A DNA stretch of 64,000 nt from Algorimicrobium echini (GTDB lineage Bacteria > Bacteroidota > Bacteroidia > Flavobacteriales > Flavobacteriaceae): the NCBI RefSeq assembly GCF_900115185.1, contig NZ_FOVN01000002.1, positions 156,335 through 220,334 on the forward strand. Direction: 5' to 3'. The first letter of the stretch is position 1. Each line of letters begins with the position of its first letter. This document shows, piece by piece, positions 22,749-27,215 of this stretch. The position numbers and the translations under genes were made by a program. The notes beneath the pieces are model-generated. The model was not told the DNA's origin, searched no databases, and saw nothing but the letters and a program-made list of their open reading frames with translations.

Positions 22749-22804
22749 TCCCGATTTTTTAATCGGGATTGTGTGAATCGTTTATCCCAAATTTATTTTG
22801 GGAT
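22749..22804 (+). terminator. Two tandem hairpins after dnaK
   Basis: Hairpin one has the stem TCCCGATT / AATCGGGA (22749-22768) with a TTTT loop. Hairpin two has the stem ATCCCAAA / TTTGGGAT (22784-22804) with loop TTTAT. Neither has a long T tail, so they may protect the mRNA 3' end or act with the terminator that follows. Confidence 0.5.
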
Positions 22805-22814
22805 CTCATAAAAC

Positions 22815-22852
22815 TAAAACGCAATCATTAATTTGGTTGCGTTTTTTTATGT
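22815..22852 (+). terminator. dnaK terminator, copy 1 of a 38-bp direct repeat
   Basis: The stem AAAACGCAA / TTGCGTTTT closes a 12-base loop and is followed by a T run, a good intrinsic terminator. The whole 38-base segment is repeated exactly at 26091-26128, after the next gene. Confidence 0.85.
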
Positions 22853-22897
22853 TTAAATTTTTATAGATATTTAAAAATCTAAATTAACCATCTACTT

Positions 22898-25800
22898 ATG
22901 AAGAATTCCTACTTAACCCTATTTTTAATTTTATTTTCCGCTTTTGTGCAAGCTCAAGAGCCTTTTGTAACTACTTGGCAGGTTGAAGATGGTGATTTGC
23001 AAATACAAATTTCGGACGCCAATAATACTTCAGATATTTACAACTACTCTATTGATTTTGGAGATGGTGTTGTGGAAAATAATGTTACAGGAGATATTAG
23101 TCATACTTTTGCACAAGCAGGAACTTATACAGTAAGTATTTCTGGTGTTTTTCCAAGAATTGTTTTTAGTAATTCATTATACAATAGCAGATTGAAAATC
23201 AGAAGTGTCGAACAATGGGGAGATATACAATGGAAATCTATGAAAAATGCATTTTCAGGATGTAGTAATTTGATTATTAACGCAACAGATTCACCAAACT
23301 TATCTCAAGTTACGAGTTTAGAGTTAATGTTTCGTGGAGCTACTAATTTGAATCAATCACTAAATAATTGGGATGTTTCAAATATATCAAACATGAGTTA
23401 TATGTTTCAGTATGCTAATTCATTTAATCAACCATTAAATAACTGGGATGTTTCGAATGTTACTAATATGAGTGGTATGTTTTATGATGCAAACTCTTTT
23501 AATCAACCAATTGGAAGCTGGAATGTGTCTAATGTTACGGAGATGAGTTACTTATTTTATTCTGCAACTAATTTCAATCAAAATATTGATTTGTGGGATG
23601 TTTCTAATGTTGAAAATATGAGTTTAATGTTTAGAGATGCAACATCATTTAATCAGTCGTTAAATAATTGGAACGTATCAAATGTAACATCAATGGGTGA
23701 AATGTTTAAAAATGCTACATCATTTAATCAGCCTCTAAATAACTGGAATTTGGATAGTGTGAATTTTCTTCAAGAAATATTTTCAGGAGCCACTTCTTTT
23801 GATCAACCTCTTAACAATTGGAGATTTCCAAATGTTTCTCGATTAGATGATATATTTTATAATGCTGTTAGTTTTAATGGGGCAATTAATGAATGGGATG
23901 TTTCCAATATTTCCTACATGGAAAATTTATTCAATGGAGCAGTTAGTTTTAACCAGCCTCTTGAAAATTGGAATGTATCTAATGTGATAGGCATGTTTGG
24001 TATATTTAGAGGAGCATCATCTTTTAACCAATCTTTAAATAATTGGGATATTTCAAATGTAACTAGTCTAGGAGAAGCATTTTTTGAAGCATCTAATTTT
24101 AATCAACCACTTGATAATTGGAATGTTCAAAACGTTACCAATATGCAAAAGATGTTTTCAGGAGCAATTGCATTTAATCAGCCAATAGGAAACTGGAATG
24201 TAGCAAATGTAAATAATTTAAATCAAACTTTTAATAATGCAATTAGCTTTAACCAACTAATTAACGATTGGGATGTTTCAAATGTTCAAACTATGGTAGG
24301 TACATTTTCTGGAGCTTCTAGTTTTAATCAACCACTTGATAATTGGAATATAGTTAATGTTTATAGCATGTCTAGTTTGTTTAATGGTGCTATTCAGTTT
24401 AATCAAGATATAAGTAATTGGGATATTTCGAATGTCCAGCAATTAAACTTTATGTTTAATAATGCACACTCTTTCAATCAGGACATTTCAAACTGGCAAT
24501 TTAGAGATGGTTTATATTTACATGATTTTCTTAATTTTTCTGGATTAGATTCCGATAATTATGACGCATTATTGTTAAACTTTTTTAATTTAGGAATACA
24601 ACCATCAAGTTTTGGCCAAAATACAGGTTTAGGTGCAAGAGAATTAAAGTTCTGTGATATAGATACTAGAACGAATTTAATAAATAATGGATGGACATTT
24701 ATAGGAGATTCATTATCAAATGAGTGTAATTCTGTTTCTGGTGTGGTTTATTATGACCAAGATGAAAATGGTTGTACTGTATTAGATATTAATGTTAATA
24801 ACATTTTTGTAAATGCATATAGTAATAATATAAGTAATGCTAAACTGGTTAATGAAAGTGAATATATACTTTATACTAGTGATAACTCTTTAACATTATC
24901 AATTATTAACATTCCAGATTACTTTACTGCAACACCACAATCTACAACCGTAGATTTCTCCATAACATCCACAGAACAAGTCGATTTTTGTTTAACAGCC
25001 AACCAAACAATTGAAGATTTAAATATTAAGCTTTTACCAATAGCTGATGCAAGACCTGGTTTTGAAGCAAATTATAAGTTAATAATAGAAAATAGAGGAA
25101 CAGAGATGATTAATAACATTTCTGCAAGTGTGTTATTTGATGATGCCAAGCAATCTTTTATTTCGGCAACGCCTGCGGAATCGAGCGCGTCTTCCAATAG
25201 ATTAGATTTTTCTATTGCCAGTCTGAATCCTTTTGCTAAACACGAAATAAACCTTGTTATGCAAACATTTGCACCACCCACTGTAAATAGTGATGATGTT
25301 TTGAATTTTACAGCTTCGGTTTTACCAAGTATGAATGATTATTCACCAGATAATAATACTTATGACCTAGAACAAATTGTGGTGAATTCTTTTGATCCAA
25401 ATGATAAACGGGTGGTTCAAGGAAACACAATAACTACGGATGAAACCAGTAATTATTTAGATTATATTATCAGATTTCAAAATACAGGATCTGCAAATGC
25501 AATAAATGTAAAAATTACAGATAATTTACATCCTAATCTGGACTGGAGTACGTTAAGCGTAACAAGTGCGAGTCATGATTATAACGTGAATCTAATAAGT
25601 TTAAATATAGTTAATGGAAATAATGTAGAATTTAGTTTTGATAACATAAACTTGCCATCTGAAATGCAAAACGAACCAGAAAGCCATGGTTATATTGCCT
25701 ACAAAATTAAACCTATTAATAGTATTGGAGAAGGTGATGTTATGAGTGGAAATGCCAGTATTTATTTCGATTATAATTTGCCAATTATTACCAATACAGT

Positions 25801-26077
25801 CTCAACCGAAGTGGTAAATCCATTAAGCAATGACGAATTTTTTATTGATAATAATGTTGTGATATACCCAAATCCTGCAGTTGACGTTATTTTTATTAAA
25901 AAGAAGTCAAACACGCAATTACATTCTGTAAAATTATATAACATACAAGGTCGAGAATTAATCAATTTAAAAGGAAATATTAACTATATAGATACACGTG
26001 AAATAGCGTCAGGTGCATATATTTTGAAAATGGAAACAAATTTTGGTAATTTAAACAAACAGATTATTATTGAGTAA
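22898..26077 (+). CDS. BspA/DUF285-repeat surface protein with T9SS sorting domain
   Basis: The 1059-residue secreted protein has a signal peptide (cut near FVQAQ), then a PKD-like domain (SIDFGDGVVENN, about 45-90). About 16 repeats of 25 residues follow (roughly residues 140-560) with the core NWDVSNVTNMSGMF..A.SFNQPL, the BspA/DUF285 leucine-rich-like type. After these come DUF11-like adhesion domains, one beginning SFDPNDKRVV, and a C-terminal T9SS type A sorting domain (IYPNPAVDVIFIK to the end). It should be exported and anchored or released at the cell surface. BspA repeats are linked to adhesion. The gene is flanked by a 38-bp direct repeat of the dnaK terminator. Confidence 0.92.
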   Translation: MKNSYLTLFLILFSAFVQAQEPFVTTWQVEDGDLQIQISDANNTSDIYNYSIDFGDGVVENNVTGDISHTFAQAGTYTVSISGVFPRIVFSNSLYNSRLKIRSVEQWGDIQWKSMKNAFSGCSNLIINATDSPNLSQVTSLELMFRGATNLNQSLNNWDVSNISNMSYMFQYANSFNQPLNNWDVSNVTNMSGMFYDANSFNQPIGSWNVSNVTEMSYLFYSATNFNQNIDLWDVSNVENMSLMFRDATSFNQSLNNWNVSNVTSMGEMFKNATSFNQPLNNWNLDSVNFLQEIFSGATSFDQPLNNWRFPNVSRLDDIFYNAVSFNGAINEWDVSNISYMENLFNGAVSFNQPLENWNVSNVIGMFGIFRGASSFNQSLNNWDISNVTSLGEAFFEASNFNQPLDNWNVQNVTNMQKMFSGAIAFNQPIGNWNVANVNNLNQTFNNAISFNQLINDWDVSNVQTMVGTFSGASSFNQPLDNWNIVNVYSMSSLFNGAIQFNQDISNWDISNVQQLNFMFNNAHSFNQDISNWQFRDGLYLHDFLNFSGLDSDNYDALLLNFFNLGIQPSSFGQNTGLGARELKFCDIDTRTNLINNGWTFIGDSLSNECNSVSGVVYYDQDENGCTVLDINVNNIFVNAYSNNISNAKLVNESEYILYTSDNSLTLSIINIPDYFTATPQSTTVDFSITSTEQVDFCLTANQTIEDLNIKLLPIADARPGFEANYKLIIENRGTEMINNISASVLFDDAKQSFISATPAESSASSNRLDFSIASLNPFAKHEINLVMQTFAPPTVNSDDVLNFTASVLPSMNDYSPDNNTYDLEQIVVNSFDPNDKRVVQGNTITTDETSNYLDYIIRFQNTGSANAINVKITDNLHPNLDWSTLSVTSASHDYNVNLISLNIVNGNNVEFSFDNINLPSEMQNEPESHGYIAYKIKPINSIGEGDVMSGNASIYFDYNLPIITNTVSTEVVNPLSNDEFFIDNNVVIYPNPAVDVIFIKKKSNTQLHSVKLYNIQGRELINLKGNINYIDTREIASGAYILKMETNFGNLNKQIIIE

Positions 26078-26090
26078 TTGATTTTAAAAT

Positions 26091-26128
26091 TAAAACGCAA
26101 TCATTAATTTGGTTGCGTTTTTTTATGT
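26091..26128 (+). terminator. Terminator after the BspA-repeat gene, copy 2 of the 38-bp direct repeat
   Basis: It is identical over all 38 bases to 22815-22852. It has the same stem (AAAACGCAA / TTGCGTTTT), the same loop and the same T run; sequence similarity stops sharply on both sides. Confidence 0.85.
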
Positions 26129-26134
26129 ATATAC

Positions 26135-26159
26135 CTAACAAGTTTTTAAAACCTGTTAG
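26135..26159. repeat. Palindromic element, possible second terminator
   Basis: CTAACAAGTTTT and AAAACCTGTTAG form a 12-base inverted repeat with one mismatch around a single base, followed by a T-rich run. Palindromes of this AACCTGTTAG kind recur between genes in flavobacterial genomes as I recall them, so it may be a dispersed repeat and a terminator in one. Confidence 0.5.
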
Positions 26160-26267: not shown

Positions 26268-27215
26268 ATGTCAACCCAACTCACCGATCTTCTCAAAATA
26301 AAACACCCAATCATTATGGCGCCTATGTTTTTGGTTTCCAATACGGCTATGGTAATCGAAGGGATGAAAAGTGGTATTGCAGGTTGTATTCCAGCCTTAA
26401 ACTATAGAACTTTAGATGAATTACGAGTTTCTATAAATGAGTTAAAAGCAGCAAAGGTTTCAGGTGGTGCTTTTGGATATAATCTGATTGTAAATAAATC
26501 CAACATTAAGTATAAAGAGCAATTACGTGTGATTTGTGAAGAAGGTTGCGATTTCATATTAACCTCTTTAGGAAATCCAGAAGAAACCATTAGAGAAGCG
26601 CATGCCGTTGGTATTAAAGTGTTTTGTGATGTAACCGATTTACATTTCGCCAAAAAAGTAGAACAATTAGGTGCTGATGCAGCCGTAGCTGTAAATAGTG
26701 AAGCTGGTGGGCATCGTGGTAATTTATCGCCACAAGAACTAACCAGTTTACTACATAAAGAATTAAATATTCCAGTCATTTCCGCTGGAGGTGTGGGTTG
26801 TAAAGCAGATATAAATACCATGTTAAGCTATGGAGCGGCAGGTGTTTCTGTAGGAAGTCCGTTTATTGCTTCTATTGAAGCTGGTGTTACGGACGACTAT
26901 AAACAAGCCTGTGTGGATTATGGTGCAGATGATATAGTGATGACAGAGCGTATTTCAGGAACACCGTGTACAGTAATTAATACGCCTTATGTACAGAAAA
27001 TTGGTACAAAATCAACGGGTTTAGAAAAGCTACTAAATAAAAATAAAACCCTAAAAAAATGGGTAAAAATGATTCGTTTTTATATCGGGATGAAAACTAC
27101 TGAAAAAGCAGCTTTACAAGCCACTTATAAAACAGTTTGGGTAGCTGGACCTAGTATTGAACATACCAAAGCTATTTTGCCAACACGTGAGATTGTTGAG
27201 AATCTGACTAATTAG
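26268..27215 (+). CDS. Nitronate monooxygenase-like flavoprotein (copy 2)
   Basis: The 315-residue FMN-barrel protein shows APMFLVSNTAMV near the N-terminus, NSEAGGHRGNL with the conserved histidine, and SAGGVGCKADI plus GAAGVSVGSPFIAS for FMN phosphate binding. It is a paralogue of 8848-9825 but clearly diverged. Relatives oxidise nitronates or act on quinones and flavins; I cannot choose. I take the ATG at 26268. The TTG at 26241 falls in the promoter box. It ends three bases before the convergent hydrolase. Confidence 0.87.
   Translation: MSTQLTDLLKIKHPIIMAPMFLVSNTAMVIEGMKSGIAGCIPALNYRTLDELRVSINELKAAKVSGGAFGYNLIVNKSNIKYKEQLRVICEEGCDFILTSLGNPEETIREAHAVGIKVFCDVTDLHFAKKVEQLGADAAVAVNSEAGGHRGNLSPQELTSLLHKELNIPVISAGGVGCKADINTMLSYGAAGVSVGSPFIASIEAGVTDDYKQACVDYGADDIVMTERISGTPCTVINTPYVQKIGTKSTGLEKLLNKNKTLKKWVKMIRFYIGMKTTEKAALQATYKTVWVAGPSIEHTKAILPTREIVENLTN

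Follow-up and report, generated by a model that had tools for sequence, protein, structure and literature searches.

The window, a stretch of 64,000 nucleotides from the 3.31-Mb genome of the marine bacterium Algorimicrobium echini (G000), contains an interval in which a long repeat-protein gene, here called the cargo, lies between two core genes, dnaK and a nitronate-monooxygenase-like gene (NMO), and is bracketed by two copies of a hairpin (Table 1). The NMO gene is 87-97% identical in five relatives of the genus, and a hairpin resembling the one directly behind the right copy also stands 3' of the last copy of the bracketing hairpin (T) in genomes G003 and G001.

Table 1. Features of the dnaK-NMO interval, in window positions
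Feature	Position	Strand	Basis
dnaK, upstream core gene, 635 aa	20829..22736	+	ORF; 76-97% identity in relatives' loci where found
Short inverted repeat ATCCCAAATTTATTTTGGGAT within the 3' UTR of dnaK, also present in G003	22784..22804	+	Sequence and G003 alignment
T1, predicted dnaK terminator, left 38-bp copy	22815..22852	+	Repeat, fold; left flank homologous to G003
Cargo, PARCEL/DUF285 repeat protein, 1059 aa	22898..26077	+	ORF, repeat spacing, domain matches
T2, predicted terminator 3' of the cargo, right 38-bp copy	26091..26128	+	Repeat; right flank homologous to G003
Second hairpin CCTAACAAG..CCTGTTAG, directly 3' of T2	26134..26159	+	Sequence, alignment
NMO-like gene (PF03060), downstream core gene	26268..27215	+	Pfam

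Results

The repeat and its hairpin

T1 and T2 are direct copies at a spacing of 3276 bp and are identical, as the first-pass annotation of this DNA had stated. Its remark that the flanks differ at once holds on the right; on the left the similarity runs six bases longer with one mismatch, and with that mismatch permitted the repeat grows to 44 bp (22809-22852 / 26085-26128). When the window was shuffled 100 times with its dinucleotides preserved, a 37-mer from the repeat found no match, up to three mismatches being allowed. At the same tolerance the 38-mer occurs in exactly two places in the whole genome, with no third copy, and the wider hairpin pattern ACGCAAYC-N3-24-GRTTGCGT likewise finds T1 and T2 only; the suggested search for further copies thus returned an uncommon hairpin. 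Each copy folds into an 11-bp stem with a 6-nt loop, followed by a T run (z -6.6), and on these features T1 is the predicted terminator of dnaK and T2 that of the cargo gene. T is too conserved for covariation to be informative (two-sided change in one of 12 pairs).

The cargo protein

The label 'BspA-repeat' given at first proved loose: the cargo matches DUF285 (PF03382) and TIGR02167, the 'PARCEL repeat' (126.8 bits against a cut-off of 30, with a 25-residue tandem repeat), while LRR_5, which we take to be the BspA leucine-rich-repeat family, is absent from its Pfam matches at E 1e-3. These repeats are followed by DUF11, DUF7619 and a T9SS C-terminal sorting domain, the N-terminus looks signal-peptide-like by eye, and the gene holds 14 DNA repeat copies spaced mostly 75 bp apart. 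Neither a recombinase domain (domain search) nor a transposase domain (Pfam) was found in the single long ORF between T1 and T2. According to their abstract, Roske et al. (2010, PMC2996958) ascribe to PARCEL proteins, of which the cargo is one, a punctate distribution and probable horizontal transfer by multiple vehicles, and name dyad symmetry as a trait of the repeat-coding DNA; terminator brackets and dnaK do not appear in that abstract.

None of five genus relatives has the PARCEL gene at dnaK. Among 58 other genomes it is there in two, which the tree places outside the genus clade of the window. Conservation of the gene with both copies across distant genera, which had been named as the finding that would count against insertion, was seen in this patchy form only. 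Of 12 homologues away from dnaK examined by eye, ten had readable 3' ends and all ten lacked T, so that T seems to belong to the place rather than to the gene; the idea that the cassette brings its own hairpin is unsupported by the same ten.

Filled and empty sites at dnaK

The recommended comparison with relatives yielded the awaited empty site in G003, a member of the same genus, where the cargo is absent and a single terminator has hybrid flanks: the left resembles that of T1 (z 24.4) and the right that of T2 (z 16.6), the inner flanks scoring z 0.6 and 0.7. This site may be ancestral or the product of a deletion. Another empty locus, L014 in G005, gave no signal in the flank comparison. 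Across 16 filled/empty comparisons, all between species and not mutually independent, both outer flanks match in nine and an inner flank in none; the remaining seven lack one or both outer matches, two of them having been made against L013, which has its own cargo and can match on one side only. In these alignments the filled form minus the empty form amounts to the cargo plus one predicted terminator copy.

Judged by predicted genes, the cargo varies between lineages at the same site and includes a sigma operon, a lipocalin-like lipoprotein and an LRR protein. Short arrays of two units occur at L171, L172 and L084, and at L177 (G102) both copies have an identical TTAGTT loop. Extra places of T were local in seven of eight cases (49 genomes), 24 of 28 hairpins with any loop fell inside this interval (20 genomes), and all 14 hairpin places in 149 genomes of the family lay at dnaK or its cassette.

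As far as flank alignment goes, there is no similarity past the hairpin around the copies, bcp (see below) and L042 excepted: T1 and later copies within one locus share no flank in 19 of 19 pairs from 16 loci (maximum z 2.5). A permutation test of T1 against later copies is modest (P 0.027). At L042 a spacer of 163 bp without an ORF separates two T. We had considered this spacer a cassette remnant, a view rejected on finding that the stretch before the second T resembles instead the dnaK 3' UTRs of L057 (z 20) and L073 (z 7.1); against its own dnaK 3' UTR the score is not significant (z 1.8).

A second locus and terminator pairs

The bcp-trx locus of the same genome behaves like the dnaK site. 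A copy of the last codons of bcp stands before its T2, the inner left flank of T2 also matches (z 5.9), and a direct repeat of ~350 bp is present; as at L042, the second hairpin thus follows core-gene 3' sequence. In 424 kb of the genome, neighbouring terminators resemble each other much more closely than those far apart do: a likeness of at least 0.8 was seen in 15 of 293 near pairs, which represent six distinct pairs at three spots, and in 0 of 11,917 far pairs.

Flavobacterium

Flavobacterium has another dnaK terminator (T*) with the same bracketing pattern. The filled locus L084 and the empty locus L089 agree at every position in the 60 bp left of T* and differ at three positions across ~110 bp to its right; the two outer T* of L084 equal the single T* of L089, and the middle one differs. 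The two cassettes of L084 share flanks like tandem units (right of T*1 and T*2, z 9.3; left of T*2 and T*3, z 6.4). Its surroundings are mosaic, because its dnaK is nearest to that of L080 and its NMO to that of L089.

At L214 (G313) the bracket surrounds a candidate phage-defence pair. There is no clean empty comparator for its flanks, and of 12 comparisons with the empty site one shows a match right of T*2 and another a match of the inner right flank (L216, z 4.3). In G294 and G288, ~39 and ~58 kb separate dnaK from its usual neighbour; a tyrosine recombinase lies near dnaK, a displaced copy of the last codons of dnaK stands at the far junction, and the new dnaK end has a different terminator, not T. 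These dnaK ends look like integrase targets, separate from the cassette pattern. G222, in which no dnaK turned up within 80 kb, was dropped as a second location of a bracketed pair: a dnaK tail precedes its first T*, which points to DNA inserted between dnaK and T*.

Discussion

On the sequence comparisons above, we consider it rather probable that accessory genes come and go behind dnaK as terminator-bracketed cassettes, the breakpoints falling at the intrinsic terminator already present there. Loss would occur when slippage, or recombination on short homology, deletes the DNA between the two direct copies; such a deletion leaves dnaK correctly ended and should therefore be nearly neutral. 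Gain would add the cargo and a further copy of the resident terminator; the likeliest route is recombination with incoming DNA in which the 3' region of that core gene is present, the exchange being closed on the short homology of the terminator. The PARCEL cassette would have passed from one genus to another, entering at the dnaK site each time. With a terminator at each end the cargo would be shielded both from dnaK and from the gene that follows, and for this reason terminators may be tolerated as docking points. Loss by deletion, with its precedent in laboratory circuits (PMC2991278), appears better grounded than gain; the two extra copies that carry core-gene 3' sequence, at L042 and bcp, would favour the gain step, itself unproven. 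The first-pass annotation had the gene entering by recombination on the terminator, or the terminator being duplicated along with it. The empty site fits this, but homologous recombination as the cause of entry goes beyond the data.

It is unlikely that site-specific integration placed the cassettes, as small elements or remnants that lack an integrase, with an integrase in trans using the 3' end of dnaK and each element bringing its own 3' region and terminator. The large stretches of G294 and G288, with their recombinases and displaced codons, the codon copy before T2 at bcp and the UTR-like stretch at L042 are what such integration would leave, but the new dnaK ends in the former pair lack T, and no recombinase was found among those cassette proteins searched against Pfam. 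Nor did one dnaK-end motif reveal, among the matches listed, a displaced copy beside T2 in T-bracketed loci; the two odd matches (L034 and L171) both lie at dnaK itself.

Vertical inheritance is unlikely. It would place the PARCEL gene and both terminators in the common ancestor of Bizionia and Winogradskyella, followed by many losses, with gene conversion keeping the copies identical. The three dnaK-located PARCEL proteins do form one clade (0.994), and the shared loop at L177 is as expected from conversion, which could be an alternative way of keeping neighbouring terminators alike. However, gene and species trees disagree: the former reads ((window,L073),L172) with support 0.994, whereas the dnaK+NMO tree joins L073 to L172 and excludes the window (0.988). 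Also against descent stand the rarity of the gene at dnaK, the deviating middle T* between identical outer ones at L084, which is unlike general homogenisation, and the varied cargo, which requires gains regardless.

Tandem duplication of the 3' region and terminator in place, the gene between them arriving later or diverging, is very improbable: the ORF-less L042 spacer, the tandem-like units of L084 and the direct repeat at bcp agree with it, but the absence of flank homology in all 19 pairs, and of any inner-flank match to the empty site in the 16 comparisons, does not. That the hairpin is simply a common terminator, two nearby copies being coincidence or selection, can be practically dismissed, since the genome-wide hairpin counts contradict it and the 81 sequences (window plus 80 relatives' loci) in which 92 of 455 hairpins have GATTGCG/GGTTGCG-type arms are centred on this very interval, a phage contig with the same hairpin notwithstanding.

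That single IMG/VR contig, in which the hairpin follows an exonuclease-like gene and the stretch holds no dnaK, was also weighed and rejected as a sign that the terminator is a phage attachment site. The Flavobacterium pattern had no IMG/VR match, and a plasmid search for the terminator gave one weak Leptotrichia match only.

Terminator-bracketed cassettes share traits with several known systems. Integrative elements at gene 3' ends have attL/attR repeats, and here too a repeat from a core-gene 3' region flanks accessory DNA, in the same neighbourhood as the likely Flavobacterium examples; the window has direct repeats at both ends and a one-copy empty site, but no tyrosine or serine recombinase of its own between the repeats, and its repeat is the terminator itself, not a coding-sequence end. 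Integron gene cassettes, units of one or few genes with a 3' hairpin, carry attC hairpins and resemble the short two-unit arrays, whereas the hairpin here belongs to the local core gene and did not travel with the readable homologues. Tn7 targets the terminator of glmS, and group IIC introns sit after terminators, so that the terminator region is again a docking site; unlike the present case, each supplies an enzyme of its own and typically duplicates few bases or none. Synthetic circuits in E. coli recurrently shed DNA through deletions between terminator repeats, also where 41 bp are shared (Sleight et al. 2010, PMC2991278). There, direct terminator copies flank a gene and are recurrent deletion endpoints, and T1 and T2 are likewise direct copies of ~40 bp around a gene; the circuits are engineered and display loss only, whereas the bracket of the window is natural, chromosomal and present in several genera, and needs gain too. 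Among the open-access PMC papers listed for docking at terminators, terminator duplication or dnaK-targeting integrases, none describes this pattern, as judged by titles and the openings of abstracts.

More tentatively, and with considerable doubt, the cassettes may represent a general class in Flavobacteriaceae: integrase-free units whose genes dock at a core gene's intrinsic terminator and in doing so duplicate precisely the hairpin found there, of any sequence. Such units would line up in short arrays, spread to the same site in other genera and exit by deletion between terminators, the gain being a hairpin-defined duplicative insertion not yet described. Many bacterial accessory genes sit alone among core genes with no mobile element visible, and their route of arrival is often unknown; here, the relatives suggest that accessory genes are gained and lost at terminators of this kind without a visible mobile-element enzyme, which would be a simple means of exchanging genes. 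If terminators were a usual seam, gene turnover could be read from sequence through neighbouring terminators copied from each other, and the repeated-terminator hazard of synthetic circuits would be linked to natural genome evolution. Terminators had been proposed as docking sites for surface genes: the comparisons partly support this, and the cargo is more varied than that; surface proteins and perhaps the candidate phage-defence pair would share one type of slot.

Results

Two copies of the dnaK terminator around a surface gene

The first-pass annotation had described an exact copy of the dnaK terminator on the far side of a surface gene, and this is borne out: the 38 bases after dnaK (T1) are found again without change beyond the gene (T2), and the repeat grows to 44 bp once one mismatch is allowed. 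By sequence and fold, each copy resembles an intrinsic terminator, with an 11-bp stem, a 6-nt loop and a T run. The protein encoded by the single long gene between them carries DUF285/PARCEL repeats, spaced at 75 bp in the DNA, together with DUF11 and DUF7619, and has a tail for T9SS sorting. In the whole 3.31-Mb genome (G000) the 38-mer occurs only at these two places at up to three mismatches, and the wider hairpin ACGCAAYC-N3-24-GRTTGCGT likewise has no place besides T1 and T2.

Features and loci discussed (positions without prefix are those of the window; L-numbers are loci fetched from genomes)
Feature	Location	Remarks
T1	22815-22852	after dnaK
T2	26091-26128	after PARCEL gene
Single long gene between T1 and T2	22898-26077	1059 aa
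Cargo: PARCEL gene	window, L073, L172	
Cargo: ECF sigma-factor operon	L013, L020, L036, L052, L171, L172	outer-membrane barrel gene too in four of six
Cargo: lipocalin-like lipoprotein	L033, L176, L177	
Cargo: LRR protein with T9SS tail	L028, L092	
Cargo: 398-aa protein with T9SS tail	L171	
Two dnaK-type hairpins	L042:9665-9870	163 bp apart, no ORF in spacer
bcp-trx bracketed locus	G000:C17:251117-255314 (L258:10783-14980)	
Hairpin-like repeat	L262:12437 and 12844 (G000:C17)	exact, 35 nt, 407 bp apart
T*-bracketed ATPase pair	L214:3184-4786 (G313); L215 (G222)	
Long stretches from dnaK to old terminator	L233/L232/L220 (G294); L244-L242/L226 (G288); L223 (G220); L215 (G222)	
CTGAGCG..GTCGAAG repeat at dnaK end	L034, ~6774; L171, ~10707	L171 on minus strand

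Filled and empty sites in the genus and beyond

The insertion that the annotation proposed predicts a single terminator without the gene in sister genomes, and such a site exists in G003, the closest genus member judged by the downstream nitronate-monooxygenase-like gene (NMO, 97%), where dnaK and NMO are separated by 271 bp with one terminator and no gene. Its left flank resembles that left of T1 (z 24.4) and its right flank that right of T2 (z 16.6), while the inner flanks of the window pair show no match (z 0.6 and 0.7). The interval of G005 (L014) is likewise empty (181 bp), and its flank comparison gave no signal. The interval holds a sigma-factor operon, two ORFs and three hairpins in G001, and a methyltransferase gene with one hairpin in G002 and G004. 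The left arm of the G003 hairpin resembles the first hairpin of G001 and its right arm is of the other type; such a mixed hairpin is perhaps the scar of recombination between two copies.

Filled and empty sites, which differ by cargo plus one terminator copy, were compared in 16 comparisons of 200 shuffles each, which are not independent (L172 was used four times, L013 three times). These are between species, many of them diverged; loci were picked by similarity to one neighbouring gene, some later ones for having hairpin pairs. Both outer flanks match in nine (window/G003 locus L113, L073/L031, L172/L052, L172/L036, L172/L037, L171/L037, L028/L026, L092/L026 and L013/L113), the right flank of L171/L037 being weaker, with 1 of 200 shuffles equally good. 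The other seven match on one outer side or none (window/L013 twice, L073/L042, L172/L020, L171/L052, L177/L077, L028/L042); for window/L013 one side each is expected, because L013 carries other cargo. No inner flank matches in any of the 16 (largest z 1.9), and the differences therefore start and stop at the hairpin. Nor do T1 and later copies within a locus share a flank beyond the hairpin in any of 19 pairs (largest z 2.5). The hairpin so appears to be the boundary of the filled/empty difference for the PARCEL gene (three lineages) and three other cargo types; cargo domains were assigned by Pfam on one member per type.

Spread of the hairpin after dnaK

The hairpin core including its loop is found 3' of dnaK in several genera. 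At up to one mismatch, 11 of 149 genomes of the family, sampled at nearly one per genus, carry it at a total of 14 places. Eleven of these stand immediately 3' of dnaK, two are about 640 bp beyond (G054, G102), and the last is T2 itself. At up to two mismatches, 37 of 49 further genomes carry it at 45 places; seven of the eight extra places lie less than 4 kb from another copy, including a pair in G183 on a 6-kb contig without dnaK, and one is remote. Thirty places were fetched as loci, and dnaK is present in 29, the remaining one being a chance match inside coding sequence. A search for perfect stems with any loop was positive in 16 of 20 genomes, with 24 of 28 hairpins in the dnaK interval. 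Under a loose pattern, 53 of 71 dnaK loci (three duplicates removed, the second hairpin of L176 added manually) have the hairpin, 16 of them at least two; the 18 without a match include ten from Flavobacterium with another terminator, and L065, whose hairpin the pattern missed. In an alignment of dnaK 3' regions the loop TTAATT is kept across genera, with few stem changes, a conservation that would seem to exceed the apparent need of a plain terminator.

A probable property of the place

PARCEL homologues at dnaK end in this hairpin. Of 12 inspected away from dnaK, the 3' end could be read in ten, all of which lack it by eye. Where the lipocalin-like gene adjoins dnaK (L033, L065, L176, L177) its end is T-like; farther away (L032, L036, L072) it has no such end. 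The terminator thus seems to belong to the place, not to the gene.

A second terminator-bracketed locus is bcp-trx in the window's genome, where three hairpins AAAAGCGACC..GGTCGCTTTT surround small lipoprotein-like genes. G003 has the empty form (single hairpin, gap about 90 bp), G001 and G004 intermediate sets, and G002 other content. The G003 right flank resembles that right of the third hairpin (z 9.3), and its left flank that left of the first (z 5.1) and also of the second (z 5.9), because a copy of the last bcp codons precedes the latter. The locus also contains a direct repeat of about 350 bp, 92-93% alike.

Among 160 terminator-like hairpins in 424 kb of the window's genome, 293 pairs lie near each other (<5 kb). 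Likeness reaches 0.8 or more in 15 of these and in none (0) of the 11,917 pairs whose members come from different stretches. The 15 reduce to six distinct pairs, since a hairpin read on both strands enters the count repeatedly: dnaK has one, bcp three, a tandem repeat beside bcp one and L262 one. At 0.75 likeness there are 17 near pairs and six from different stretches. A permutation test that set T1 against the later copies in its own locus gave an only modestly positive result (P 0.027).

Proposed movement and mechanism

All three PARCEL proteins encoded next to dnaK fall in a single clade (FastTree local support 0.994, as for the values below), the window protein being nearest to that of L073 (0.994). 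In the tree of two markers, dnaK and NMO, L073 and L172 stand together with the window outside (0.988). This conflict suggests transfer of the PARCEL cassette between genera into the same dnaK site.

Gain would proceed by recombination with incoming DNA that bears the core-gene 3' region, closing on the terminator. In L042 the stretch before the second hairpin resembles a dnaK 3' UTR (z 20 to L057, 7.1 to L073, 1.8 to its own), and the extra copy there and at bcp has carried core-gene 3' sequence along. These copies also agree with a recombinase acting in trans and with tandem duplication, both of which would fit as routes of gain; recombination with incoming DNA is favoured. Loss could follow from deletion between direct terminator copies, with a laboratory precedent in an E. 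coli circuit whose function was repeatedly lost through deletions joining homologous terminators, including where these had 41 bp in common (PMC2991278; see also PMC8546616). Deletions at repeats below 200 bp are recA-independent, as cited in PMC2991278.

The dnaK 3' end in Flavobacterium

The Flavobacterium dnaK terminator (T*) is a different hairpin, AACCGAATC..GATTCGG or CCGAGTC..GACTCGG, present in 18 of 121 genomes at 20 places: 13 within 1.5 kb of dnaK, a second copy in G313 and six upstream of corA (five genomes). In L084 three copies surround two related T9SS genes in cassettes that resemble tandem units. The single T* of L089 and the 60 bp to its left are matched exactly by the outer copies, and three differences separate the two loci over about 110 bp rightward; since the L084 dnaK is nearer to that of L080 (97.8%) than of L089 (93.4%), this area is a mosaic.

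In G313 and G222 two T* copies about 1.65 kb apart flank genes for an AAA ATPase and its 146-aa partner. In PADLOC, the ATPase of G313 hits PDC-M29A (E 2e-39) and the 146-aa protein of G222 hits PDC-M29B (E 4e-9), which makes the two a candidate phage-defence pair. The G313 flank test is not clean: the left flank of the first copy matches in 10 of 12 comparisons, the right flank of the second in one and an inner flank in one.

About 39 kb in G294 and 58 kb in G288 separate dnaK from the T*-corA end. A tyrosine recombinase stands near dnaK in both, recognised through Pfam in G294 and as a visibly close homologue in G288. The new dnaK end has a different terminator. A displaced copy of the last dnaK codons precedes the old terminator in G294, G288, G220 and G222, and none was found in G310. 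This looks like integrase attachment, with the dnaK 3' end as the likely target; that each stretch is one island is tentative, since the one in G294 includes genes resembling hemA and hemH by eye.

Two further observations concern other loci. The CTGAGCG..GTCGAAG repeat of L034 and L171 sits between what appear to be two copies of the last dnaK codons (..DFEEVK stop). The viral contig L181 (IMGVR_UViG_3300025276_000092) carries the hairpin of T1 and T2 3' of a gene judged exonuclease-like by eye.
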